From Corynebacterium hansenii (lineage in GTDB: Bacteria > Actinomycetota > Actinomycetes > Mycobacteriales > Mycobacteriaceae): 64,000 bases of DNA. Both the position numbers and the translations under genes were made by a program. The DNA is taken from the NCBI RefSeq assembly GCF_030408795.1, contig NZ_CP047211.1:2356001-2420000 (forward strand), written 5' to 3'. Below, one piece after another: positions 3,979 through 57,718 of this stretch; the first letter of the stretch is position 1, and every line of letters begins with the position of its first letter. The notes beneath the pieces were generated by a model that worked only from the letters and a program-made list of their open reading frames with translations, did not search any database and had not been told where the DNA came from.

Positions 3979-4171
3979 TGTCTGCCTCCTGGTGGATGGT
4001 CACCGGGCGGGAGAGGTCTACGCGGGCGAGGTCTCGGGTGTCGATTTCTACGTTCAGGACCGTGGCGTAGACGCGCCGGTATGCGCCGGCGCGGCCACGC
4101 TCAGTGATGGTGCGGGTCTCGGAGCCGACGATCACGCCGGCGATCATCTGGGCATCTGGGTCTCGGCTCAT
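3971..4171 (-). CDS. Hypothetical phage protein, 66 aa
   Basis: Starts MSRDPDAQMIAGVIVGSE, with the ATG overlapping the stop of the 43-residue gene upstream. The mix of beta-prone segments suggests a small beta-barrel, but no family is recognised. Confidence 0.55.
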   Translation of the reverse strand: MSRDPDAQMIAGVIVGSETRTITERGRAGAYRRVYATVLNVEIDTRDLARVDLSRPVTIHQEADNA

Positions 4172-4921: not shown

Positions 4922-5766
4922 GACAGGCCCCCGATCGGCTTGGCACTCACGACCCGCAGGGCTGGGCTCGATTCCTGGCCATGGCTCTCGACGTCGCCGG
5001 TGGCTCCGTCGACGATCGGGCCCGGCGGCGTGCCGTCCCCGTCGTCCTCGCCGTCGTTTTCGTCGGCGTCGTCGCGGCGGCACACCCACACGGCGGCGAA
5101 GTCGCCGGCACGCGCGAAGAACCGGCCCCCGATCTCCGTGGCCTCGAGGCGAAGCACCTCGCCCAGCGACGCCGCGGCTTTCATCAGCTCGGAGGCCTGC
5201 GTCGGCGTCATCTCCACGGCGGTATCCGCGAAACCAGGGCCGGCTTCATCGCCGTAACCATCGGCGGCGGCCATCGCCGCGTCGTGCATCTCTTCGACCT
5301 CCACGGCGACCTCGCGGATCGCCGCGAACACAGCGCCCTCCTTCTGCCGCCAGGACAGGGCCGGGCGGCGGGTGCGGTGCGTGCAGATCGGCAGCCCATA
5401 GAGCAGCTCGAGCTCCAGCGCATCAGCCGTGTGCGTCAGAAGTGCCTCGACCGGGTTGTCCTTCGACACCTTGTGACGGCAGATCTTCGCCAACTCGCGG
5501 GCCGTGGCCGGGGTGATCTCCACCGCGCCGGCCGAGATCGCATCGGCCTCGGGAACGATGCACGCCGCCATCGTCTGCGGATTGCGGGCGGTGACCACCA
5601 TCGCGCCGGTGTCGGACACCTCGATGCGCACCGTGTCGAACGTCGCCGATTCATCGCGGGCGTCGGCGATATGCGCCACCGACATCAGGGCGCGGGCCAG
5701 CTGCTCGGCCGGGGCCTGCGCCTGGATCCGTGAGATCGCGGACTTTGGCTCTTCAACAGCGCTCAT
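4918..5766 (-). CDS. Sliding-clamp-like phage protein
   Basis: A protein of 282 residues. Its repeated beta-strand/helix pattern resembles the DNA polymerase III beta-clamp fold seen in actinophage early regions. Examples are a helix QLARALMSVAHIA, strands around VRIEVSDTGAMVVTARN, helix TPATARELAKICRH, and a second module with TPTQASELMKAAASLGE. The C-terminal 50 residues are acidic and disordered-looking. A role as processivity factor or clamp decoy is inferred from this pattern alone; a tailored replication accessory protein of another fold is the alternative. The start overlaps the stop of a 52-residue gene (ATGA). Confidence 0.45.
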   Translation of the reverse strand: MSAVEEPKSAISRIQAQAPAEQLARALMSVAHIADARDESATFDTVRIEVSDTGAMVVTARNPQTMAACIVPEADAISAGAVEITPATARELAKICRHKVSKDNPVEALLTHTADALELELLYGLPICTHRTRRPALSWRQKEGAVFAAIREVAVEVEEMHDAAMAAADGYGDEAGPGFADTAVEMTPTQASELMKAAASLGEVLRLEATEIGGRFFARAGDFAAVWVCRRDDADENDGEDDGDGTPPGPIVDGATGDVESHGQESSPALRVVSAKPIGGLS

Positions 5767-5921
5767 TGTTGCGCCTCCTTCATTTCAATGGCCAGCTGGC
5801 CAGGGATTTCGTCGGGTTCGTGCTTCTTCGATTCGATCCAGCGGTGGATACCCGCGCGGCGCCCCGGCGGCAGGGACTCCCACCACCGCCACGCCTCTCG
5901 GTCGTCGTCCTCAGCGGTCAT
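5763..5921 (-). CDS. Small phage protein, 52 aa
   Basis: An ATG frame linked to both neighbours by 4-nt overlaps. The product is acidic at the start (MTAEDDDREAWRWWESLPPG) and ends in KEAQQ; tryptophan-rich. It is too short for a domain call. A purine-rich AAGGAGG near its own 3' end serves the next gene. Confidence 0.5.
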   Translation of the reverse strand: MTAEDDDREAWRWWESLPPGRRAGIHRWIESKKHEPDEIPGQLAIEMKEAQQ

Positions 5922-6283
5922 TCGCCCCTCCCCCGATGCCGACGGCGCGAGCCGCGCTTGGCCATCTCCAGGCGGATGCGCTCCGCCGGGTCCCGCCGGC
6001 GGCGGATGCGCTCGCGGTGCTCCGGCGGCATGCCGACGCCACTGTGCGGGCGGCGGGCGACGCAGGAGACCACGTGCGGGCGGAAGAGCAGCTCGCCGGC
6101 GGCGCGCCGCTCCTCGGCGTCATGGCGGCCCAGTACCTCGGCGCGGCCGGCGACCAGACGGACCACGCCCGCCGGATCACACGACGCATCGAGCGCAAGG
6201 CGTTTTCCCGTCGTGGTTTCGCGCCACATGATCGGGTCGCCGCAATCGCGGCAGTACGCCTCGTCCGGGCCGCGGGGTGCCAT
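5918..6283 (-). CDS. Zinc-binding-like phage protein, 121 aa
   Basis: Starts MAPRGPDEAYCRDCGDPIMW. The YCRDCGDPI segment looks like the first half of a zinc ribbon, with a GKRLALDASCDP segment after it. The C-terminus is strongly basic (RRRHRGRGE), suggesting nucleic-acid contact. It is coupled by TGATG to the 39-residue frame upstream. Confidence 0.55.
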   Translation of the reverse strand: MAPRGPDEAYCRDCGDPIMWRETTTGKRLALDASCDPAGVVRLVAGRAEVLGRHDAEERRAAGELLFRPHVVSCVARRPHSGVGMPPEHRERIRRRRDPAERIRLEMAKRGSRRRHRGRGE

Positions 6284-10530: not shown

Positions 10531-10608
10531 AAGGTCTGCGCAGCTCACAGCGTTGTTGTTCGCCGTTCCGCCCTTTGGTTTGCTCAACTTTTCCGGCACA
10601 CTGAAGGC

Positions 10609-22200: not shown

Positions 22201-23538
22201 TCACGGGCGGTGCCCCGCCGAACGTCCCCGGCGCAGCATCACGGCACCCACCGCCGCAACGAGGACCAGGTCCGCGACCGCCATCGCGATGAGCATCATC
22301 CCGGGCCCCGCGGCCGCCGCGATCGCCCCGCAGACGATGGCGCCCGCGGGGATGAGCACGCGATCGGCCGACGCGAAACCGAGCACCGCGCCACGGCTGT
22401 CCGGCGGGCTGAGGGCGATGACGGCCAACCGGTTCGTCGTCCGGTAGATCTGCCCGATCGCGCCGAGAACCGCGAACGCGGCCAGCGCCGCGAGCAGATG
22501 GCCCTTCGACGGCGGCTGCCCCGCAACGACGAGCGCGCCGCCCGCTACGAGCACCGGGACCGCGACTGCCGCGGCGGACACCGCGGCCCACCGGCCGGGG
22601 TCGCGGACCTTCCTTTTCCGCAGCCACAACGTCGCCGCGACCGCGCCGAGGGCGGCGCTCGCCGACCCCGCGGCGGCACCGACGCCCCTCGCCCCGAATG
22701 CCCCATCGGCGAACACCACGGGGATCATCGCGGTGTAGGGGAACACGGCCAGCATCGGCCCGATGGCCAATGCGATTTGCGGCCCCAGGAGCGGCTCCGC
22801 ACGCAGCGCGGCACGGAGACCCCGCGGCGACTCCCGGTCGCGCTTGACGACGGACCCGCCGCCGCGCGCAGCGGCCCGCTCGACGGAACCGAGGATCACC
22901 GCGGAGCCGGCGGCATGCGCGACGAGCACGGGCATCATGGCGGCGACCGGACCCGAGGCCGCGAGCAGCAGGCCGCTCACCATCGGCCCGACGATCAGGC
23001 TGAGGGTGCCGATGGTCGCCAAGTCGGACATGCCGCGGACCATGCCCCCTTCGCCGGTGGCGCGGGTGACCGCGATCTGCCGGATGGCGGGTTCCGGGGC
23101 CGTGAGCAACGATCGCGCACCGATGATCCCGATGGCCGCCCACGCCCACGGCGCGGCCGGAGCAGCAGGAGCGACCGCCGTGGCCGCCGTGGCCGCCGCA
23201 GGCGCGGCAGAGGACGGGTCCGTGGGAACAGCCGGAGCCGCCGCCATGATCGCCGCGATGCCGACCGTCGCCACCGTCGCCGCGCACCCCATCCACAAGA
23301 GCAGTCGCGCGGGATTGCCCCGATCGGCGATCGCCCCGGCTACGGGGCCGGCGAAGAGAAGCGGCACCAGTCGGGCGGCCGTGGCCACCCCGATCATCCG
23401 GGGATCACCGGTGACGGCCAGCACCCACCAATTGAGCACCACCAACTCCGCGGCACCCGCGAACCGTACCGCGGCCGCCGACGTGAGCAACCGCTTCAGC
23501 GGCGCCGCGGAGCCATCGGCCCTGCGACGCAGCATCAT
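22201..23538 (-). CDS. ciuF: MFS exporter, probably siderophore export (CiuF-like)
   Basis: A 445-residue MFS protein with spans throughout, a LLFAGPVAGAIADRGNPARL loop matching the MFS motif-A region between spans 2 and 3, and a hydrophilic central loop (residues of roughly 200-225). It is the last gene of the iron-siderophore operon; its ATG overlaps the synthetase stop. In C. diphtheriae an MFS gene, ciuF, follows the synthetase ciuE in the same order, so export of the newly made siderophore is the expected role. The symbol rests on operon position and family. Confidence 0.75.
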   Translation of the reverse strand: MMLRRRADGSAAPLKRLLTSAAAVRFAGAAELVVLNWWVLAVTGDPRMIGVATAARLVPLLFAGPVAGAIADRGNPARLLLWMGCAATVATVGIAAIMAAAPAVPTDPSSAAPAAATAATAVAPAAPAAPWAWAAIGIIGARSLLTAPEPAIRQIAVTRATGEGGMVRGMSDLATIGTLSLIVGPMVSGLLLAASGPVAAMMPVLVAHAAGSAVILGSVERAAARGGGSVVKRDRESPRGLRAALRAEPLLGPQIALAIGPMLAVFPYTAMIPVVFADGAFGARGVGAAAGSASAALGAVAATLWLRKRKVRDPGRWAAVSAAAVAVPVLVAGGALVVAGQPPSKGHLLAALAAFAVLGAIGQIYRTTNRLAVIALSPPDSRGAVLGFASADRVLIPAGAIVCGAIAAAAGPGMMLIAMAVADLVLVAAVGAVMLRRGRSAGHRP

Positions 23539-26500
23539 CGGCCGACGACCCCCGCACGTTCGCGTTCGTGGGACGGGGCCAGCAGCGGGTTCGGCACCGC
23601 GACGTAATCGTCGCCGCCCGAAGTTCCGAGGGCCATGGTGACGAAGGCCTTCTGGTCGAGCGTCGGGCCGAGGAGAGCCTCCGCGTCGCCGTCGGGCACG
23701 TGACCGCGGTGCTCGTCCAGAAGATCGTCGACCACCCGGCGGACCACGGCCCACCACTGGGCCGCGTCACCGCCGAAGACCCTCCGCAACTCCTCGACGA
23801 TCCCGTCGAGGTTGCCGAAGAACAGGGCGTAATGCCCCTTGCGCCGGAACTCCGCCACATCGTCGGTCACGGTGACCGCACCGTCGCGGGCGGGAACCGC
23901 GAACCCGGATTCGCGGAGCCGCGGCGGGAAGATGCGCAACCCCGAGAAATCGCGGAGCATCAGCCCCCGGTACCGCACGGCTCCCCCGTCGACGGCCACG
24001 CGCACCATCGTGTTCTGCAGGTGCGCTTCCAGGGCGACGCCGTGCCGCCACATCAACGGAAGCGCGAGTCCCAGCAGATCCCGGGCGTAGGCGCGCAGCC
24101 AACCACGTGGATCCGACTCCGCCAGCGCCGCGACCGGGCTTTCCTCGCCCGCGGGAAGCCCGCGCAGCGAATTCGCGCCGACGACGATCTCATCCGCGCC
24201 CGCCAGCGCGGAGGGATCTTCCCTGATCAGGCAGGACAGGCCGCGGCGGACGGCCGGTTCGTCCCGAGGTCCGCGATAGGCGACGCCCGCGATCTCCGGA
24301 ACGATGATGGTCGGTCGTTCCTCCCGCCGGGCGACGGAGTCGGCGAGAGTGCGGACCAGATCCGCGACGGCCGGGGTACCCAGGGCCGACTCCTGCGAGA
24401 TGGACCGCCGCGTCGACGTCAGCGTCACGTCGAGGGCGGTCTTTATCATCGGCCGCCTGCCATCGATCCCGGGTGCCACCGGAACCGAGGTCCGCAGCGA
24501 AATCGTCGGACGGACCGGAAGAGTCGCCGTCGTGGCGGGCACGATCAGGCCTTCCTCGACTTCGCGGGAGAACTCGGACGCGATGATCGACGAGTACTGC
24601 CAGGGGTGAACGGGGATGATCCGCGATGCCCCGATCAAGTGAGGAGCGCGCGCACCGATTTCGGCGTCCACGGCGTCGAAGAGGTCCGGGTAGCAGCGGC
24701 GCAATTCGCCCTCGACGCCCCGGACCCCGACCTCTTCGACCAGTCCTTCCGACACGGCGACCAGCAGCAGCTCGACGACGGGCCCGTGCTCCGGGCCGAA
24801 GCGGACCGAATCCGCCGGCGAGAACCCCCTGCGCAGTTTCGCCAGGGGGTGCACGTTGTGGCCGGCGACGACGAGCGAATCGGCCAGGGGGCCGGCCAAC
24901 TGCTTCGGTGCCGTCCCCAGCGTTTCCCAGTGCCGCCCCGCGCCGCCGGCCGCCTTCTCCCGCAGACGCATTCCGCGCAGCCGCCGATCGACGGCGGCTG
25001 CGGTCAGGGCGAGGTTGTCGGACGCATTCGACGTGTCCCGGGCCAGCGCGGCCAAACGATCGGGGGCCACGCCCTCGATTCGCGCGCTGGTTTCGAGCCG
25101 GTCCGCCACGATCCGGCGCGCCTCGCCGTCGTCGGCCCGGTGCCGGGCCGGGGCGGCCCCATGCAGCGGGTTGTCGACGCGGACGTACTCTTGGTCGGTC
25201 ACCGCACCGCTCAGGCGCATGGCCAGCACCCGTTTCAGGGGCAGCTCCGGTCCGAGCATCGCCTCGAACACCGCCTCCGCGTCGCCGAGACGGCCATCGC
25301 CGGGAAGGCCGGAAAACGCTCCGGAGCACCGCGCCGCTTCTTCGGCGATGCGTTCCGCGACCACCCCGTATGGCACGGACGCCGGAACGGACGCGTCTTC
25401 GGCCACGCGGGCCAGTCCGACGATCGTGTTCATCAGGAGCGGGTAGGAGAGTTTGTCCACCGCGGCGCGGCGGTCGCCGGCGACGAGCGCCGTCCCCTCG
25501 AGGCTGCTCATCAACTCGTCGGCCGCCGTTGCTCCGGCCAATCGCGACCCCGCCACCACGCGGGCGCCGCCGTTGTCCCTGACCACCGCGCACCGGGGCA
25601 TGCCGTCGCGCAAAACGAGAACCGCATTCTGGGGATGCGGCTCCAGCGCCACGCCCCACCGGGCGAGCAGCGCGATGGACGGCGCGACGAGGACGTCGGC
25701 AAGCGCCGCGAACCATGCCTCGGCGACCTCCGCCACAGTCATGGGCACGGCCGCACGCCCGCGGATCGATTCGAAGACGTCGATCAGGATCGGACGCCCG
25801 GTCAGCGGGTTGGACGCCTGCAGCGCGGCGATCGGCAGGGGCACGTCTTCCCCAATGGCCGGGGCCGCGGGATCATCGCGGACGATGGCCCCGAAGCAAT
25901 GGGCCCGGATCCCCTCCTCCGCGCGGAACCCGACGCCGGCCATGTCGTCGGCGACGTGGAACGCGGGCGCGTCGTCGCCGGTGCGGGGGATGAAGCCGGG
26001 GTCGAGGGCGAGGGCTCGCCGCACGGAGCCGGAAACCGCCGGCCCCGCCAGCGCTCCGCGGGAGATGCCGCGGATGGCTCCCGTGAGTTGGGCTTCCAGG
26101 GCCAATTTGACGTGGACCGCACCCGAGCCGTCGTCGGCGCCCACCCGCACGGTGCGCACCGACATCAGCGGTTCGGCGGACGCCGTCGCGTCCAGCAAAA
26201 CGACGCGGCCGGCGTCGATCTCGGCCGCGAATTCCGTGGAGATGACCTGCTCCCACTGCCATGGATGCACGGGGATGACCGCGAATCCGGCGATGTTCCG
26301 GGCGTCGAGTTCCTCCCGGATGGCACCGGCCAGCGCCGGCAGCCTCGCTCCGAGGGCCTCGAGGATCGGCCTTCCGGTCTCGACGACCTTCGCCGGGTCG
26401 ACGGCGGCGAATCGAAGGGTCACCCGTTCGACCTGCTCCGGCAGCACGTCGCGGTAGCCGTCGCCGAGCCCGAGGCTCGTCTTCGCGCACGGGTGGGCCG

Positions 26501-27011
26501 GGTGCCCCTCCCCCACGAGTTGCTCGAAACGCGCCAGGAGGGCCGACGGCCCACGGTCCCCGGGAAGGCACCGCCGCCGGCATTCCCGGACCAGCGCATC
26601 GAAGCCCGATTCCTGCGAGGCTCGACCGGCGGTATTCGCCTGCTTTGCGACGGCCCACCGTTCGCGCAGACCGGCCCGTGCCCGCGCCAATCCCGTCACC
26701 CCATCGGAGAGCTCTTCGAGGAGCCGAGGCAGATTCGGGACAGGGCCGGCGAATCTTCCCGCTCGCGCGAGTTCGCCGACGATTTCCGCCGGTTCTCCGG
26801 CTGCCCGGAACTCATCGGCCTCCCGCTCCGTCAGCGGCGGGGCGAGCAACCTTTCCCGGTCGAGCGCGGTGAGCAGGCGCTCGACGATCTCGGCACGCGC
26901 GCCGGGATCCGCGCCGCCATCCCCCGTTTCCTCCCCCGCTCCATCACCGTTCGTCGAACCGACGAGTCTTCGTCGGTGTTCACGTGCATTGGACTCCAGA
27001 TCGAAAACCAT
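23535..27011 (-). CDS. ciuE: Double-domain NIS siderophore synthetase (IucA/IucC fusion, CiuE-like)
   Basis: A 1158-residue protein made of two NRPS-independent siderophore synthetase modules of about 550 residues. Each shows the family's landmarks: GHPAHPCAKTSLGLG versus HNVHPLAKLRRGFS; VIPVHPWQWEQVI versus IPVHPWQYSSII; SVRTVRVG plus a Lys segment versus SLRTSVPV plus IKTALDVTLTSTRRSIS; ALEPHPQNAVLVL versus ALEAHLQNTMVRV. Both therefore look catalytically intact, fitting two successive ATP-dependent condensations on carboxylates such as citrate. Single-polypeptide fusions of this kind are known from corynebacterial corynebactin synthesis. The ATG at 27011 is chosen because TAGCCT lies 7 nt upstream, inside a DtxR-like box. 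Confidence 0.9.
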   Translation of the reverse strand: MVFDLESNAREHRRRLVGSTNGDGAGEETGDGGADPGARAEIVERLLTALDRERLLAPPLTEREADEFRAAGEPAEIVGELARAGRFAGPVPNLPRLLEELSDGVTGLARARAGLRERWAVAKQANTAGRASQESGFDALVRECRRRCLPGDRGPSALLARFEQLVGEGHPAHPCAKTSLGLGDGYRDVLPEQVERVTLRFAAVDPAKVVETGRPILEALGARLPALAGAIREELDARNIAGFAVIPVHPWQWEQVISTEFAAEIDAGRVVLLDATASAEPLMSVRTVRVGADDGSGAVHVKLALEAQLTGAIRGISRGALAGPAVSGSVRRALALDPGFIPRTGDDAPAFHVADDMAGVGFRAEEGIRAHCFGAIVRDDPAAPAIGEDVPLPIAALQASNPLTGRPILIDVFESIRGRAAVPMTVAEVAEAWFAALADVLVAPSIALLARWGVALEPHPQNAVLVLRDGMPRCAVVRDNGGARVVAGSRLAGATAADELMSSLEGTALVAGDRRAAVDKLSYPLLMNTIVGLARVAEDASVPASVPYGVVAERIAEEAARCSGAFSGLPGDGRLGDAEAVFEAMLGPELPLKRVLAMRLSGAVTDQEYVRVDNPLHGAAPARHRADDGEARRIVADRLETSARIEGVAPDRLAALARDTSNASDNLALTAAAVDRRLRGMRLREKAAGGAGRHWETLGTAPKQLAGPLADSLVVAGHNVHPLAKLRRGFSPADSVRFGPEHGPVVELLLVAVSEGLVEEVGVRGVEGELRRCYPDLFDAVDAEIGARAPHLIGASRIIPVHPWQYSSIIASEFSREVEEGLIVPATTATLPVRPTISLRTSVPVAPGIDGRRPMIKTALDVTLTSTRRSISQESALGTPAVADLVRTLADSVARREERPTIIVPEIAGVAYRGPRDEPAVRRGLSCLIREDPSALAGADEIVVGANSLRGLPAGEESPVAALAESDPRGWLRAYARDLLGLALPLMWRHGVALEAHLQNTMVRVAVDGGAVRYRGLMLRDFSGLRIFPPRLRESGFAVPARDGAVTVTDDVAEFRRKGHYALFFGNLDGIVEELRRVFGGDAAQWWAVVRRVVDDLLDEHRGHVPDGDAEALLGPTLDQKAFVTMALGTSGGDDYVAVPNPLLAPSHERERAGVVGR

Positions 27012-27031
27012 GAAGGTGAGGCTAACCTTTA
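27012..27031 (-). promoter_or_regulatory. DtxR-like box with embedded -10, before the synthetase gene
   Basis: Read on the minus strand, AAAGGTTAGCCTCACCTTC matches the corynebacterial DtxR consensus (AGGTTAG-C-CTAACCT core) at most positions. TAGCCT inside it is 7 nt from the ATG at 27011, so repressor binding would directly block the promoter. The box overlaps the 3' end of the ATPase gene. Confidence 0.7.
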
Positions 27032-27849
27032 ACAAGAAGGTTGACATGCGGAATCGGCAATTCCCTTCCCGTTTCCGGATCGCGCACCATCAGACAATCG
27101 ACGCCGAAAACGTCGCGCACCAGGTCACGGGTGAGCACCTCCCCCGCCTCCCCTTCGGCGACGATGGCGCCACCGGACATCGCGATGACGTGGTCGGCGA
27201 ACCGGGCCGCCTGCGTCATGTCGTGGAGGACCATCGCCACGGTGCGCCCCTCGGCGTTGAGCCCCCGGACCAGCTCCAGCGTCGCCAGCTGATGGGCGGG
27301 GTCGAGGTAGGTCGTCGGCTCGTCGAGAAGCAGAATCCCCGCCTCCTGCGCGACGGTCATGGCGATCCACGCCCGCTGCCGCTGGCCGCCGGACAGCGCG
27401 GTGGCGGGCGCGTCGAGAAGCTCCGCCACCCCGACGCGCGCGGCGGCGGATTCCACGGCGCGGTGATCGACCTCCGACAGCGCCGCGAACGCGCCGGTGA
27501 AGGGGTACCGGCCGAAGGCGATGAGCTCCCGCACCGTGATGCCCTCCGGCACGACGGGCTGCTGCGGCAGGAAGGAGACCTCCCGCGCGAACGCGCGTGC
27601 CGACGATGCGCCGACGTCCGCCCCGCCCAGGCGCGCCTGGCCCGCCGACGGCCGCAGCTGGCGGCCCAGGGTCTTCAGCAGCGTCGACTTGCCGCACCCG
27701 TTCGGGCCGATCAGCGCGGTCACGCGACCGTCGGGGATGGCGACGTCGACCCCGTCGAGCACCGGTTCGCCGCCGTAGCCGACCACGAGGCCGACGCCGG
27801 ACAGGCCCTTTTCCGGGGCTTTCCGATTCCGCGGAGTTTTCACGATCAC
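27022..27849 (-). CDS. ciuD: Iron-siderophore ABC transporter ATPase (CiuD-like)
   Basis: A 275-residue FepC/FecE-type ATPase. Walker A is GPNGCGKSTLLK, the Q-loop region FLPQQPVVPEG, the signature ALSGGQRQRAWIAM, Walker B GILLLDEPTTYLD, and the H-loop VAMVLHDMTQAARFA. The TTYLD form and overall length are typical of ferric-siderophore importers. It follows the two permease genes directly and energises them. Its 3' end contains the regulatory box of the synthetase gene. Confidence 0.95.
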   Translation of the reverse strand: MIVKTPRNRKAPEKGLSGVGLVVGYGGEPVLDGVDVAIPDGRVTALIGPNGCGKSTLLKTLGRQLRPSAGQARLGGADVGASSARAFAREVSFLPQQPVVPEGITVRELIAFGRYPFTGAFAALSEVDHRAVESAAARVGVAELLDAPATALSGGQRQRAWIAMTVAQEAGILLLDEPTTYLDPAHQLATLELVRGLNAEGRTVAMVLHDMTQAARFADHVIAMSGGAIVAEGEAGEVLTRDLVRDVFGVDCLMVRDPETGRELPIPHVNLLVKG

Positions 27850-27850
27850 G

Positions 27851-28858
27851 TCACACCTTCGTCAATCTCAACAACAGGAACACGAAATACGGCGCGCCGA
27901 CGATGGCGATGAGCGCGCCGACCGGGATCTCGGTCGGCGCGAACAGCCATCGCCCGACGGCGTCGCACCCGACCACCAGCGTGGCGCCGAGCATCGCCGC
28001 CACCGGGATCTGCCGGGACAGCGGCCCGCCGACAAGCAGCCGCGCGGCATGCGGCACGATCAGGCCGGCGAACCCGAGCACCCCGGCCGCCGCCACGGCA
28101 CCCGAGCCGCACGCGACGGCCAGCACCACCGCGACCACGCGCCAGCGCACGGGGACCACGCCGATGCCCGCCATCACGGCGTCGTCCAGGCGCAGCGCAT
28201 CGAGGTGGCGCGACACGATCAGCGCCGCCACCAGGCCGAAGGCCACGACGGGGGCGACGACGGCGGCGTCGGAAAGCGTCCGCGCGTACAGCGAGCCCTT
28301 CAGCCAGGTCATCGCGGCGCCCGCCTCGGGGGCGGCGCGCACGAGCAGCAGCTGCGTCGCAGCGGCCAGCCCGACGGACACCGCCACGCCGGTCAGGGCC
28401 AGCCGCACGGGGTCGCCGATGCCGCGCCCGGCAAGCGCGAGCACCACCCCGGCGCCGATCAGCGCCCCAACGAAAGCCACGGGTGTGAGCGCCTGCGCCG
28501 GCAGCGCGCCCGCGCCCAGCAACGCCGCGACCGCGGCCAGGCCACCGCCCGCGGTGATGCCGACCGTGTCCGGCGCCGCCAGCGGATTGCGCAGCCCCAC
28601 CTGCAGCAGGCACCCCGCCACCGCCATGCCGACGCCGGCGATCGCGCCGACCAGGATTCGCGGCAGCCGGTACTTCCAGATCAAGTTGTCGCCGCCGACC
28701 AGCCTGGCCACCACATCGCCGGGCGGCACCTGGACCGCCCCGATGCCCAGCGCCAGCACGACCACGGCCGCAAGCGCCGCGACGAGCACCGCCACGATGG
28801 CGGCCGTGCGGGCGCGGGTGCGGGGCGTGCTTTGCGACGAAGCCGTCCTCGCCATCAT
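27851..28858 (-). CDS. ciuC: Iron-siderophore ABC transporter permease (FecCD family, CiuC-like)
   Basis: A 335-residue FecCD/BtuC-family permease with about nine to ten spans. Family landmarks: RLPRILVGAIAGVGMAVAGC near residue 65, NPLAAPDTVGITAGGGLAAV, and a C-terminal GFAGLIVPHAARLLVG segment, the loop that contacts the ATPase. It pairs with the preceding permease as a heterodimer. The start overlaps the stop of that gene by ATGA. It carries one copy of the dispersed 11-mer in its first codons. Confidence 0.9.
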   Translation of the reverse strand: MMARTASSQSTPRTRARTAAIVAVLVAALAAVVVLALGIGAVQVPPGDVVARLVGGDNLIWKYRLPRILVGAIAGVGMAVAGCLLQVGLRNPLAAPDTVGITAGGGLAAVAALLGAGALPAQALTPVAFVGALIGAGVVLALAGRGIGDPVRLALTGVAVSVGLAAATQLLLVRAAPEAGAAMTWLKGSLYARTLSDAAVVAPVVAFGLVAALIVSRHLDALRLDDAVMAGIGVVPVRWRVVAVVLAVACGSGAVAAAGVLGFAGLIVPHAARLLVGGPLSRQIPVAAMLGATLVVGCDAVGRWLFAPTEIPVGALIAIVGAPYFVFLLLRLTKV

Positions 28859-30045
28859 GCCGATCCCTCCCCGGAAGCGAAGCGTCCATTCAGCGGGCGC
28901 GGAAGCGTGGGGGTTTCAGGCGTGGCGCCATTCGACGCCGCGCGTTTCGATGCCGCGCGGTTCGGGGCGCCGCCGTTGCGGGTGCCGCGCAGGGAGCCGA
29001 TGCCCCACAGCAGGACGGGGACGCCGATCAGGGCCGTCACGATGCCCACCGGAGTTTCCGCCGGCGCCCACAGCCACTGCCCGACGGTGTCGGCCACGAG
29101 CAGGACGGCCGCGCCGAGCACCGCGGCGACGGGCACGGCCGAGCGATGGCGGGGGCCGCACACGCGGTGCGCGGCAACGGCCGCCATGAGCCCCAGGAAA
29201 CCGATCGGCCCCGCGGCGGCCACGCACGGCGCGATGAGCAGCACCGCCGCGGCCACGGCGAGCACCCGGGTCAGCCGGGGACGCGCCCCGACCGCGGTGG
29301 CGACCGAATCGCCGACGACGAGCGCATCGAGCCCGCGGGCACCCGCGATCACGGCGGGGGCCACGACGGCGGCGACGATCATCGCCGGGACGACGTCGGC
29401 CATGCGCACTCCGCCGAGACGCCCCGACAACCAGGACAACACGGTAGACAGCTGGGCTTCGTCGAGAACCAGGATGATCGCCGTCAACGCGCTGAACAGC
29501 GCGGAGACCGCCATGCCGAGCAGCACCATGCGCTGCACGGCCATCGCCGAGGACGTCGCGGCCCTCCCGCGCATGCCGAAGGTGATCGTCGCAGATGCCG
29601 CGACGACCGCCCCGGCGAGTGCGCCGGGCAGCAGGGCGGCGCCGCCGACGGAGCCGGTCACCGTCGTCGCCAACACCGCGCCGAAGGCGGCGCCGGAGTT
29701 GACGCCGGTGATTTCCGGGTCGGCCAGCGGGTTCTTCGTGGCCGTGCGCAACAGGACGCCCGCGATGCCCAGGCAGGCGCCGACGACGACCGTCGCCGTC
29801 AGCCGGTCGACGGCGACCGAGTGCAGTTCGGCGCCGAGCCATTCCGCACCCTCCGGAGCCGCGACGGCCGAAAGCCGCCCCCACGCGAGGGCGGCGATGA
29901 GTCCCGCTCCGCCGGCGAGCGCGGCGATGATGCCCGCCGCACGGTGGCGGGACGGGCGGTTAGCCGGCCCCGAGGAGAACTTCGCGGAGCCGGACGGGCG
30001 GGAACGGGAGGGGCGGGGCGCCGGCGTGCGTGGCCCCGGGGTCAC
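28855..30045 (-). CDS. ciuB: Iron-siderophore ABC transporter permease (FecCD family, CiuB-like)
   Basis: A 396-residue FecCD permease with a basic, proline-rich N-terminal extension of about 45 residues, then about ten spans. Landmarks: GACLGIAGVLLRTATKNPLA and DPEITGVNSGAAFGAV, and later GPIGFLGLMAAVAAHRVCGP. The GTG at 30045 overlaps the binding-protein stop (GTGA), which sets the start; the frame stays open further upstream. It is the first permease of the operon and the likely partner of the next gene. Confidence 0.9.
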   Translation of the reverse strand: MTPGPRTPAPRPSRSRPSGSAKFSSGPANRPSRHRAAGIIAALAGGAGLIAALAWGRLSAVAAPEGAEWLGAELHSVAVDRLTATVVVGACLGIAGVLLRTATKNPLADPEITGVNSGAAFGAVLATTVTGSVGGAALLPGALAGAVVAASATITFGMRGRAATSSAMAVQRMVLLGMAVSALFSALTAIILVLDEAQLSTVLSWLSGRLGGVRMADVVPAMIVAAVVAPAVIAGARGLDALVVGDSVATAVGARPRLTRVLAVAAAVLLIAPCVAAAGPIGFLGLMAAVAAHRVCGPRHRSAVPVAAVLGAAVLLVADTVGQWLWAPAETPVGIVTALIGVPVLLWGIGSLRGTRNGGAPNRAASKRAASNGATPETPTLPRPLNGRFASGEGSA

Positions 30046-30941
30046 TTCGCTTCGGCGATGATCTGGTCGAGCATCGCTTCCGCCGCGAGCGGGCCGCGCG
30101 ACCGCGACCACGTGTCCTGCTCAACGTCGATGACCTTGTCCACGACCCCGCCGTAGGGGCTGGCGCGGAAGCCCTCGGTGTCGTTGTAGAGGTACGCGAC
30201 GTCGAGCTTCATGCCCGGCAGCTTGTCCCCGGTCAGCTCGGCGACGTCGGTCTTCGACTCGATGGCGGACTTCTCGCCGTCGTAGCCGTACTCGTACCCG
30301 ACGGCGGTGAGCAGCGAACCGGAGAAGGACTTCGCGATCCACGTGTAGAGCGTGTCCTTCGACCAGCCGATGACGGCGGCGCGGGTGCCCGGCTTCACTG
30401 CCTTCTTCGCTTCGGCGATCTTGCCGTCGATGCGGGAGCGCACCTCGCCGGCTTCCTTCTCCTTGCCGAGCTTCGCGGCGATGGCGTCCATCGCGTTGAG
30501 CACGTCGACATAGGAGGTGTCCGCGTAGGTTTCCGTCGGCGCGATGCCCTTGAGCTGATCGAGGATCGCGGCATGCCGGGTGGGGCTGGCGAGGATCAGA
30601 TCCGGCTCGAGGGACTGGATGACCTCGAGGTTCGGCTGCTTGGCCTGCCCCACCGACGTCGCGCCGTCGAGCTTCCCCTTCAGCGTCTGCGGTTCGGCGG
30701 ACTTGCCGATCTCGACGGTGCCCACCGGTGTGACGCCGAGGGCGACGAGGATCTCCTCGTAGCGCCAATCGAGGGCGACGACGCGGAGTTGGTCGGAGCC
30801 GGCCCCGGCGCCGTCTCCGGTCTTTTCTCCCCCGGAGTCCGACGAGCAGGCGACGAGCGACAGGACGAGCCCGAGCGCGAGGGCGAGTGCCGCGGCGACC
30901 CGCCCGGCGGACCACCGAACATTGATCAAGGAAGTGTGCAT
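30042..30941 (-). CDS. ciuA: Iron-siderophore substrate-binding lipoprotein (CiuA-like)
   Basis: A 299-residue lipoprotein. A signal peptide (VAAALALALGLVLSLVACSS) ends in an LVAC lipobox. The mature part has the FepB/FhuD-type bilobal fold pattern: RVVALDWRYEEILVALGVTP, PNLEVIQSLEPDLILASPTR, a long linking helix, and AVIGWSKDTLYTW. It captures ferric siderophore outside the membrane and delivers it to the two permeases encoded next. It is the first gene of the operon, with TATGCT (30954-30959) as probable -10 and a DtxR-like box upstream. Confidence 0.92.
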   Translation of the reverse strand: MHTSLINVRWSAGRVAAALALALGLVLSLVACSSDSGGEKTGDGAGAGSDQLRVVALDWRYEEILVALGVTPVGTVEIGKSAEPQTLKGKLDGATSVGQAKQPNLEVIQSLEPDLILASPTRHAAILDQLKGIAPTETYADTSYVDVLNAMDAIAAKLGKEKEAGEVRSRIDGKIAEAKKAVKPGTRAAVIGWSKDTLYTWIAKSFSGSLLTAVGYEYGYDGEKSAIESKTDVAELTGDKLPGMKLDVAYLYNDTEGFRASPYGGVVDKVIDVEQDTWSRSRGPLAAEAMLDQIIAEAK

Positions 30942-30981
30942 GCCCTCAATGAAAGCATACGTTCCACCTAAACAACATCAC

Positions 30982-31000
30982 TACGGTCAGGTTCACCTAA
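30982..31000 (-). promoter_or_regulatory. DtxR-like box upstream of the siderophore operon
   Basis: On the minus strand, TTAGGTGAACCTGACCGTA matches the DtxR core at about 11 of 15 central positions. It lies about 23 nt before the TATGCT -10, over the expected -35 region. A second weaker AGGT-containing half-site lies at about 30963-30970. Iron-dependent repression of the whole operon is inferred. Confidence 0.6.
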
Positions 31001-54906: not shown

Positions 54907-55734
54907 ATGAGCGCTTACGCCGATGACCTCGCCCTCGCCCACCGGCTCGCCGATCTCGCCGACGCGGTGACGCTGCCGCGCTTCGGTGCCGCGGACCTCG
55001 ACGTCGAGTCGAAGCCGGACCTCACGCCCGTGTCCGACGCGGACCTCGCCTGCGAGCGGGATCTGCGGGAGTTGCTGTCCGACGAGCGCCCCGACGATGA
55101 CGTCGTCGGCGAGGAGTTCGGCGGCGACGCGACGTTCGAGGGCCGCCAGTGGGTCATCGACCCGATCGACGGGACGAAGAACTTCGTGCGCGGCGTGCCG
55201 GTGTGGGCGACGCTGATCGCGCTGCTGGTCGACGGTGAGCCGGTGGTCGGCGTGGTGTCGGCGCCGGCGCTGGGCCGCCGCTGGTGGGCGGCGAAGGACG
55301 GCGGGGCGTGGCGGTCGGTTGCGCTGGGTTCGCCGGCGACGTCGGAGGCCCCGGCGGAGACGCCGGGTGCGTCGGCGCCGAAGCGCATCACGGTGTCGCG
55401 CGTCGGCGACGTCGCCGACTGCTCGGTCGCCATTTCGTCACTGACCGGCTGGCGGGACCGGGGGCTGCGGGACCAGCTGATTTCGCTCACCGACGACGCC
55501 TGGCGCCTTCGCGGTTACGGCGACTTCTTCTCCTACTGCCTGGTCGCGGAGGGGGCGGTGGACGTCGCCGCGGAGCCGGAGGTGTCTCTGTGGGATCTGG
55601 CGCCGCTGGCGCTGCTGGTTTCCGAGGCCGGCGGCCGGTTCACGTCGCTGGCCGGCGAGGATGGGCCGCATGGCGGCGATGCCGTGGCCACGAATGGACT
55701 GCTTCACGACGCCGTCCTGGACTACCTGAAGTAG
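54907..55734 (+). CDS. hisN: Histidinol-phosphatase
   Basis: A 275-residue inositol-monophosphatase-fold enzyme catalysing the penultimate step of histidine synthesis in actinobacteria. Landmarks: [40 protein letters not shown] (metal Glu), [20 protein letters not shown], the [10 protein letters not shown] loop and [20 protein letters not shown]. The [16 protein letters not shown] block distinguishes HisN from SuhB-type enzymes. TAGACT (54894-54899) lies 7 nt before the ATG; the open frame upstream is not coding. Confidence 0.92.
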
Positions 55735-55880
55735 GTTCGGCGCGGGGACGTCGTAAAGCGGGGAACCACCGCGGCTGCGCCGGTGGAAAGGCGGTCGCGC
55801 CCACCGCACGAACATGCCGAGCGCGTCTGCACGCCCCTCCCCCGCACACCCGCCGCGCGCCCACGGCTAACGGCCTTGCC

Positions 55881-55899
55881 TGAGGTGACGCTAACCTGA
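55881..55899 (+). promoter_or_regulatory. DtxR-like box before the Lys-rich Cys-motif gene
   Basis: TGAGGTGACGCTAACCTGA matches the 19-bp corynebacterial DtxR consensus at about 15 positions and contains TAACCT (55892-55897), a plausible -10, 36 nt before the ATG at 55934. Binding would block the promoter when iron is plentiful. Confidence 0.6.
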
Positions 55900-55933
55900 T
55901 CCGCAAAAGTTCACGGAGAAGGGAACGCGGGGA

Positions 55934-56314
55934 ATGGCCAAGGGCGGCAAGAACGCCAAAGGCAAAGGTAAAGGCAAGGACGGCGGCAAGGCCAAGGTCA
56001 AGGACGAAGACAAGGCCAAGGGCCCGGCCAAGAGCAAGAAGAAGTCGGGCAAGGCGAAGTCGAAGAAGGCCGCCGCCGGGACCACGCTGCGCCTGCCGGA
56101 GTGCTCGAAGGCCGAGGCCAAGGCCGCGAAGAAGCTCGCCGGCAAGGACCCGTTCCGCCTGGCCGCGATGTCTCCGAAGAAGAAGTGCTGCAAGTCCGGC
56201 ACGCGCTGCCTGCGGTGCCCCGTCGTGCTGCACAAGCTCAACCGCGAAATCCGCAACGGCGAAGTCGACCGCGACGCGCTGCTGCTCGTCGCCGCAAAAG
56301 CGCGGGTGCGCTGA
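55934..56314 (+). CDS. Lys-rich protein with Cys cluster, predicted iron-regulated
   Basis: A 126-residue protein. Residues 1-50 are a Lys/Gly/Ala-rich disordered tail (about half Lys). The folded part ends in KKKCCKSGTRCLRCPVVLHK: Cys 85, 86, 92 and 95, with Cys 57 upstream, i.e. CC-x5-C-x2-C, a possible metal or cluster site. No signal peptide, so cytoplasmic; the tail suggests nucleic-acid or polyphosphate binding. GGAGAAGGG precedes the ATG. A DtxR-like box covers the promoter, so expression is probably raised in iron limitation. Function unknown. Confidence 0.75.
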   Translation: MAKGGKNAKGKGKGKDGGKAKVKDEDKAKGPAKSKKKSGKAKSKKAAAGTTLRLPECSKAEAKAAKKLAGKDPFRLAAMSPKKKCCKSGTRCLRCPVVLHKLNREIRNGEVDRDALLLVAAKARVR

Positions 56315-56324
56315 CCCCGCGCCA

Positions 56325-56401
56325 GGCCGCGCGCCCGCCTACGCCAGCTGGAATCCGCCGCCCGGCCGCGCGCCCGCCTACGCCAGCTGGAATCCGCCGC
56401 C
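56325..56401. repeat. 39-bp tandem duplication spanning the protease stop
   Basis: Two copies, identical over at least 38 nt, begin GGCCGCGCGCCCGCCTACGC at 56325 and 56364. The second contains the stop and last seven codons of the serine protease gene; the first is an exact non-coding echo of them. Confidence 0.9.
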
Positions 56402-57433
56402 GGGCCCGCCGTGGAGGTTCATGTCGTCGATCTGCGCCCGCACGGACGTCACGATCGTCGGCGCGAACGCCGGCCCCTGCAGCGGCGTGACGCAGGCGGG
56501 GGCGGAATCGGCGCCCTTGATCATCCCGACCAGGCGCTCGCCGACGAACACCGGCGCGCCCGAATCACCCGGCGCCGCGCAGATCTGCGTGGACACGTGC
56601 GGGTCGGAGGCCGAGCCCGGCGCCCCCTGGACCCACGTCGGGCCACAGGTGCGGCCGGTGGCGACGCCCTGCTTGCAGGCGGTCTCCCCCGTCTTCGGCA
56701 GGTCGCCGACGGAGGTGACGCGGGTGTCGCCGTAGGTGGACGTCGGCACGGCGTTGCCGCCCAACACCAGAACCGCGTAGTCGTAGGTCGCATCGACGCG
56801 CTGGACGGTGCCGATCACGCCCGCCTCGACGGCATCCATCGAGCGCACGGGCGCACCGGTGGCGCCGCAGTGCCCGGCGGTCAGGCCGATGAGCCGCCCG
56901 CCCGCGTCGCGCCCGGCGGCGGCCAGCGTGCAGACGTTGCGCGCGTCGCCGTCGCCCACCAGGATCGGCGTGCCCGGCCCGACGAGCGCGCGCCCCTCAC
57001 CCGCGAGGCGCTCGGCTTCGGCGGGCGCGGTGGGCGAGGGGAACCACACGCCGTCGACGCGATTGTGCACGGGCCCGGGCGTCGCGCCGAGGATCTTGGA
57101 CACGGGGGCTTCGGCCACCGGATGCGGCTCCATGGCCAGCTCGCGCGCGGCTCCATCGAGTGCGGGGCCGGTGCCGTTTGCGCCGTCCGCGGCATCCGGC
57201 TTGACGACGGCCGACGCCGCCGATTCAGCGGCCTCCGCCAGATCGGCGACGGGGCCATTCGGGGCCGGTGCGACGGCCGGTGGAGCCGCCGGGGCCGGAT
57301 CCGAGACGTCGGGAAGCGAGGGAACGGCCATCGCCGCGGCACCGCCGAGGCCCGTCGCGGCAAGCACGGCGCAGGTTACGGCGGCCACGCGGCCACCCCA
57401 TCGTAGTGCCGCCGCAGTGTGAATGCCGATCAT
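56378..57433 (-). CDS. Secreted chymotrypsin-like serine protease
   Basis: A 351-residue secreted protein. A signal peptide covers residues of about 1-38 (WGGRVAAVTCAVLAATGLGG), followed by a Pro/Ala-rich propeptide-like stretch. The S1 triad is visible: His in LIGLTAGHCGATGAP, Asp in RVDATYDYAVLVLGG, Ser in ICAAPGDSGAPVFVGERLVG. Cys pairs near the His and in KQGVATGRTCGP fit disulphides. It ends in GGGFQLA, just at the duplicated sequence. The ATG at 57433 is chosen for the signal peptide. The substrate is unknown. Confidence 0.88.
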   Translation of the reverse strand: MIGIHTAAALRWGGRVAAVTCAVLAATGLGGAAAMAVPSLPDVSDPAPAAPPAVAPAPNGPVADLAEAAESAASAVVKPDAADGANGTGPALDGAARELAMEPHPVAEAPVSKILGATPGPVHNRVDGVWFPSPTAPAEAERLAGEGRALVGPGTPILVGDGDARNVCTLAAAGRDAGGRLIGLTAGHCGATGAPVRSMDAVEAGVIGTVQRVDATYDYAVLVLGGNAVPTSTYGDTRVTSVGDLPKTGETACKQGVATGRTCGPTWVQGAPGSASDPHVSTQICAAPGDSGAPVFVGERLVGMIKGADSAPACVTPLQGPAFAPTIVTSVRAQIDDMNLHGGPGGGFQLA

Positions 57434-57718
57434 GTTTGAGCCGTGCCCCGTTCGTGTGAGAAGTGTCCCCGAAATACGTTCTGGCCAGTCATTTCGGGAT
57501 GCCGGGGCAACCATACCGCGCCACCCGGATTCGCAAAGAATGTTGCGGAAGTTGCGGGTGTGACTGTGTCGATCGGAGGTGGCGGCGCGGTTCACGGCGG
57601 GCGCCGCACGGGTCTTCGCCGAACGTCGCCCCGGAGGCGCGATCGGATCACCGCATGAACGCGATCGAATGGGCTCATCATCTCGCAAATCCGGATTGCG
57701 CGGTGGTATTTTTCGGAA

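Follow-up and report, generated by a model that had tools for sequence, protein, structure and literature searches.

The window, that is, the whole stretch of 64,000 nt analysed here, carries on its forward strand a gene for a basic protein of 126 residues (55934..56314, stop codon included). The upstream neighbor, mentioned as context only, encodes a HisN-type phosphatase (54907..55734, +; NCBIfam TIGR02067, Pfam PF00459). Directly 3′ of the gene there is a direct duplication of 38 bp (56325-56362 and 56364-56401), which lies at the end of a convergent trypsin-like gene (56378-57688, −).

The protein has a pI of 10.4 and contains 30 Lys, 19 of which are found within residues 1-50 (55934..56083, +), a part whose length varies among relatives. 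The Lys-rich stretch is thus N-terminal and not the tail reported in the preliminary description, which had nevertheless recognized the gene itself correctly, with its product of 126 residues and its box-bearing promoter. Five Cys are present (57, 85, 86, 92, and 95). The last four compose the cluster CC-KSGTR-C-LR-C (residues 85-95, 56186..56218, +), that is, a CC-x5-C-x2-C motif. The position of Cys57 is occupied by Tyr in the relatives P0008 and P0012, and therefore only the four-Cys cluster is conserved; the earlier count of four Cys holds for this cluster, but omits the fifth, unconserved residue. The protein showed no family match in Pfam, and the searches of Pfam and NCBIfam, of PDB sequences and of known folds provided no relative with an established function.

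A DtxR-type box of 19 bp, TGAGGTGACGCTAACCTGA, is located 5′ of the gene (55881..55899, +), as judged from its matrix score, its mismatch count and its retention among relatives. The probable -10 element TAACCT (55892..55897, +; extended -10 GCTAACCT) lies within the box, and a probable ribosome binding site, GGAGAAGGG, read by eye, is positioned 10 nt 5′ of the ATG (55915..55923, +). With up to two mismatches, the pattern TWAGGTNANSCTNACCTWA is found at three places in the genome (3.1 Mb), all inside the window and including 55881. When three mismatches are allowed the pattern becomes weak, with 21 + 19 matches on the two strands versus 12 + 11 for the reversed control. A symmetrised matrix was built from 31 DtxR sites of Corynebacterium glutamicum, belonging to genes with altered expression in a dtxR mutant (Table 1, PMC1382209), with cg1070 and eight other negatives left out of the training set. 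The box scored 16.3 in this matrix, being third among 63,982 window positions, and none of 60 simulated sequences of 64 kb reached this score. The near-consensus site over a probable -10 that the preliminary description had noticed is accordingly present.

Two sites at nearby iron genes were used as yardsticks. The best site of the window (27012..27030, score 20.6) is at the 5′ end of the gene for an IucA/IucC siderophore synthetase (23535-27047, −), and the second best (30982..31000, score 17.4) lies 41 nt before the gene of a periplasmic binding protein of iron-siderophore type (30042-30941, −; PF01497 above cut-off, NCBIfam below cut-offs). The box at 55881 is about as good as these two. 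The region 23535-31000 as a whole is a siderophore block with the synthetase, an ABC ATPase and permeases (read by eye), and the binding protein. The fourth-best match of the matrix, TTTGGTTTGCTCAACTTTT at 10574-10592, is AT-rich and may be due to chance. Rfam gave no match at 55600-56600 up to an E value of 1.

A functional DtxR-type operator is very probably located at 55881-55899, as predicted. The genome encodes three DtxR-class proteins (PF01325 matches above cut-off), among which L254 was read by eye as DtxR. With three such proteins, another regulator of the same class might use the box, and one of them might sense manganese. The matrix, on the other hand, derives from sites of an iron regulator and the published irp5 data, in the parts covered, concern DtxR, which renders such a substitution very improbable.

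The window protein is almost certainly a member of the Irp5 family (DIP0894/CE1009/cg1070). It is therefore a homologue of named proteins and not simply the "unknown" product it was initially taken for; in the parts of the literature covered, no function is given for the irp5 product. In C. diphtheriae, footprinting identified eight DtxR operators, including that of irp5 (gene DIP0894, a conserved hypothetical), which reads CTAGGATTGCCTACACTTA (PMC524172). The gene is listed as DtxR-regulated in both PMC524172 and PMC1382209. Irp4 was considered as the identity of the gene and rejected, since the table of PMC524172 gives irp5. The same 19-mer, CTAGGATTGCCTACACTTA, sits 6 nt 5′ of the family gene in L109, and P0134, a near-identical protein, bears the name C. 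diphtheriae. The site predicted for CE1009 of C. efficiens, TTAGGCATCCCTTGCCTCG (PMC1382209), is found before the family gene in L114. For cg1070 of C. glutamicum, the predicted site ATAGGTTATCCAAGCCTAA (PMC1382209) is present in one of 242 genomes (G065), 18 nt before the start of its family gene, and cg1070 is regarded as the ortholog because the published site adjoins the family match in that genome.

The expression of cg1070 did not change in the dtxR mutant, either by array or by RT-PCR, and the authors rate such non-responding sites as most likely false positive (PMC1382209); the band shifts described in the parts covered of that paper took in the 31 other sites, the cg1070 site not being among them. 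In an RNase J mutant, irp5 fell by 1.33 log2 units (PMC7917786). The sites of DtxR-repressed genes in C. diphtheriae either cover the -10 or lie beyond the start point (PMC5784534), and the window gene, with its box over the -10, matches this layout. As far as covered (for 2018, minus the body of Table 3), the main text of two papers on C. diphtheriae, from 2018 and 2026, does not mention DIP0894/irp5, nor does the main text covered of the 2025 ChAP-Seq paper mention cg1070.

Homology extends over the Cys core. In one and the same search, profile A2 returned the window gene (9.5e-23), the irp5-like gene of L109 in G039 (3.4e-12), the second copy of L109 (8.5e-21) and the G065 gene resembling cg1070 (2.2e-12). 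The single-sequence search provided 20 close proteins, with C. freneyi among those named; further named records of relatives come from C. xerosis, from a Corynebacterium MAG and from an entry titled C. halotolerans. A profile detected relatives that carry the Cys motif in 80 of the 242 Corynebacterium genomes. The remaining 162 gave no match in this profile search, so that the protein is either dispensable there or was missed. The family was found in 132 of 397 genomes of the order (39 of 85 genera) and, with a wider profile, in 77 of 394 genomes of the class (21 of 137 genera). A search with an alignment of 69 rows returned 634 proteins; among the 120 matches listed, the genera named include Corynebacterium, Rhodococcus, Nocardia, Gordonia, Williamsia, Tsukamurella, and Mycolicibacterium.

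The CC-x5-C-x2-C motif is kept in all 30 loci found by the single query. In 57 of 60 larger loci it is followed by P or A, while one of the other three has Q after the motif and two are one residue longer; the count of 57 used an expression demanding the motif, and the single-query loci and the variant check supply the remainder. Conservation of the cluster among orthologues had been proposed as a check, and the cluster is indeed kept. In the aligned relatives, a Lys three residues before the cluster is also conserved, and Lys and Arg rank among the best-conserved positions other than Cys.

P0128, a family member from C. ulcerans, carries the public name "30S ribosomal protein". L185 and L188 (near position 4000) encode proteins ending in KCCRSxPRCxxCPY(T/V)GGNP, which share the Cys spacing but have neither a Lys stretch nor a box, and perhaps represent a different family sharing the motif. 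Tandem pairs of family genes are found in species of the C. glutamicum/C. efficiens type (L107, L110, L114, L117, and L119), with a box before the first gene, weak in the case of L107, and none before the second. In L109, the two family copies are 4.7 kb apart and the second has no box.

In the nearest species (L009-L017) the box is retained in slightly altered form, and many relatives retain it in diverged form. Its core, AGGN4GCTAN3T, occurs 30 times in 1.45 Mb on both strands (60 loci of ~12 kb each), and 22 of these occurrences fall in the 400 nt before the family Cys motif, where 0.14 are expected. Expressed per gene, it precedes 22 of 63 family genes (0.14 expected), and the shorter GCTAN3T precedes 34 of the 63 (5.7 expected). 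At least six of the eight core positions are retained in 53 of 72 promoters, in which 10 of the 11 remaining positions, i.e., those not used in choosing the promoters, favor the base of the DtxR consensus; for the 44 promoters outside the nearest species group, the respective figure is 9 of 11. When 64 promoters outside that group were scored with the C. glutamicum matrix, 45 ranked within the top 5% of local windows and 35 within the top 1%.

Near-perfect boxes are frequent in other families of the order (for instance, TTAGGTTCACCTAACCTAA in L184 and ATAGGTTCGCCTAACCTAA in L178) and exist in some loci of other orders (ATAGGTAAGCCTTACCTAT in L248 and TTAGGTAAGCCTCACCTAC in L245). The notion that the right half is too degenerate for DtxR was dropped in view of these palindromes and of the IdeR of Saccharopolyspora, shown to be capable of binding one half site only (PMC8464063).

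When the loci are taken in three groups, the box outscores every other site of its locus in 33 of 59, 32 of 36 and 18 of 29 cases; the loci come from related species and hence are not independent. The expectation by length alone is 1.5, 1.4 and 2.1 loci. Because intergenic DNA is AT-rich, 200 column-shuffled matrices reached higher means (4.4, 6.2 and 5.8 loci), which are thus the fairer baseline; their maxima (22, 30 and 18) came from shuffles of the same columns. The groups entered with 60, 39 and 30 loci, of which 59, 36 and 29 had a family gene that could be placed. Group L094-L153 contains three loci of another family (L151-L153), and L221 of the last group belongs to the window's own family and has no box, the count without it being 18 of 28. 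The loci covered 42 of 83 same-order and 30 of 54 other-order genomes with a match, and L230, which has no motif, was left out of the box count. A chance origin of the box is ruled out by these family-wide data.

Outside the nearest species group, 15 of the 21 complete core matches end 4-7 nt before the start codon, start codons having been chosen by hand, and those transcripts should therefore be leaderless. In the window's clade, the box is 31-37 nt from the start.

The -10 element makes up half of the box, and the latter might be nothing else than an extended -10 of a gene outside iron control. This would agree with the enrichment of GCTAN3T by itself, with the indifference of cg1070 to the loss of dtxR (PMC1382209) and with the one genus that has no box. 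On the contrary, AGG with precisely this spacing precedes 22 of 38 GCTAN3T sites near the family genes versus 8 of 330 others, species of the C. glutamicum and C. efficiens type have the box beside a separate TACACT -10, other families possess the near-perfect palindromes described above, and the irp5 operator was footprinted (PMC524172). A plain promoter element is hence an improbable explanation, and repressor control remains the preferred one.

The genus without a box is g2 (Mycobacterium type), in which none of 18 loci, drawn from the 20 g2 genomes with a profile match, has a box score of at least 10. Such a score is reached in 10 of 14 loci from other genera of the window's own family (from L202-L218, L212, L213, L216, and L218 are included in the own-family box count). 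Several g2 loci (e.g., L137-L139, L141, L142, and L221) are divergent from a gene of TypA length. Several second paralogs and some other-order loci also have no box. Control was thus lost, or was never present, in some lineages, and the boxless g2 offers a natural contrast to the box-bearing genera.

Control by a repressor of the DtxR/IdeR type is well supported at the level of the family, and we infer it for the window gene. The DtxR control suggested by the preliminary description agrees with the retention of the box in much of the family, the footprinted irp5 operator (PMC524172) and the DtxR-like protein encoded in the genome; cg1070 and g2 are the contrary cases. Since a family with the Cys core and a frequent iron box spans the order and reaches other orders, irp5, otherwise a lone hypothetical gene, is probably an old component of how actinobacteria respond to iron.

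The AlphaFold model of residues 51-126 (pLDDT 85, pTM 0.70) has helices at 9-17, 23-27, 46-57, and 63-75 in the numbering of the model. The four Cys (model positions 35, 36, 42, and 45) are placed in the loop before the third helix. The fold search gave no clear match among solved folds; weak Foldseek rows to chains of the mitochondrial ribosomal small subunit (prob 0.10-0.14) were set aside. In the 72 relatives measured, the family core is basic, with a pI of at least 9.5.

The family gene changes its genomic place among loci; it follows hisN in the window and has other neighbors elsewhere. Within 1 kb of the family gene, 15 of 57 loci have a divergent gene of TypA length, 19 a member of the Pth cluster and 13 one of the L25 cluster. 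Single examples of TypA, RF3, Pth, L25, Prs, and GAPDH were named by NCBIfam. In two species (L094 and L095, ~5600-6100), a gene of the metal-sensitive repressor class, with PF02583 found for L094, stands in divergent orientation to the family gene, and the intergenic region shows repeats of the ACCCC...GGGTAT type.

These features bear on what the protein does. A small cytosolic carrier or buffer is one option, in which the four Cys would hold iron, an Fe-S cluster or zinc and pass it on under scarcity, the Lys part being incidental or an aid to partner binding. The conserved cluster and the iron-type promoter are consistent with it, as is the metal-sensitive repressor gene (PF02583) adjoining the family gene in L094, with a gene of the same cluster in L095. 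The conservation of Lys and Arg besides Cys and the prevalence of translation genes among the neighbors point elsewhere, and a carrier is therefore considered unlikely.

The preferred reading combines a metal site with binding of nucleic acid or the ribosome. Iron-loaded DtxR would occupy the box, cover the -10 and keep the gene off; for the window gene this step is deduced from the conserved sequence, and for irp5 the binding of the operator was shown by others. During iron starvation, DtxR would leave the box and the gene would be expressed, yielding the small Irp5-family protein. Its four Cys probably hold a single metal site, be it zinc or an Fe-S cluster, which would shape the basic loop. 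The loop and the Lys-rich N-terminus may then bind RNA or the ribosome, a putative activity which, judging from charge and gene neighbors, is about evenly poised between true and false. The protein might finally serve an iron-sparing response after transcription, much like the Fur-controlled FbpA, FbpB, and FbpC of Bacillus, a role which is drawn by analogy and is tentative, being rather less likely than the binding itself. The proposal of a DtxR-repressed Irp5-family protein with a metal site, RNA or ribosome binding and iron sparing has roughly an even chance. Its broadest form, an old actinobacterial iron-starvation protein under IdeR/DtxR that carries a Cys4 metal, binds nucleic acid or ribosome and spares iron after transcription, is doubtful. 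If it is true, the metal site could sense iron directly.

As for novelty, the DtxR control of irp5 and the site predictions for CE1009 and cg1070 are already in print, and the new part is the breadth of the family beyond Corynebacterium. Neither this breadth nor the Cys core is mentioned in the parts covered of PMC1382209, PMC12327846, PMC524172, PMC5784534, PMC13001254, PMC7917786, PMC8464063, PMC12161575, PMC8464778, PMC6701010, and PMC3022926.

Among known systems, a comparison can be drawn with the iron-sulphur loop of EndoIII/MutY, which has the C-x5/6-C-x2-C spacing with basic residues, as does the window protein. The two HhH-GPD proteins of the same genome carry VCRTRPECGACPVRESC (read as MutY) and CHSRRAACGACFLAADC (read as Nth), versus CCKSGTRCLRCPVV here, and CP is shared by the loop of the MutY-like protein and the window protein. 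The family might thus provide a helper in DNA repair or DNA binding, given that DNA needs protection under iron stress. The likeness was, though, judged by eye and bears no statistic. In place of the fourth Cys of the glycosylases there is an adjacent CC; in the aligned relatives, the fourth-place Cys of C-x5/6-C-x2-C-x5-C is not conserved. The window protein also has no glycosylase domain and no Pfam match, and none of the five Pfam families matched by 22 members (E up to 10) is glycosylase-like, in a search where HMMER filters remove most weak matches. A DNA helper is accordingly a poor candidate.

The closest counterparts of the window protein are Irp5, CE1009, and cg1070, which share its Cys core (P0134; L109 and L114; L162) and a DtxR-type operator just 5′ of the start. 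Relative to these three, the Lys-rich N-terminus of the window protein is longer and its core is longer by one residue; the gene stands after hisN and has a probable leader of ~30 nt, whereas the start in the other three is some 6-18 nt past the box.

By description, the window protein also resembles FbpA, FbpB, and FbpC of B. subtilis, for which a post-transcriptional action in iron sparing is postulated and RNA binding is unproven in the part covered of PMC8464778. All are small, basic and under an iron repressor, the control in the window being concluded from sequence; the repressor in Bacillus is Fur, unlike the DtxR type, and no homology is claimed. If the proposed role is true, the Irp5 family would play the part that falls to the Fbp/FsrA and RyhB arms in Fur bacteria.
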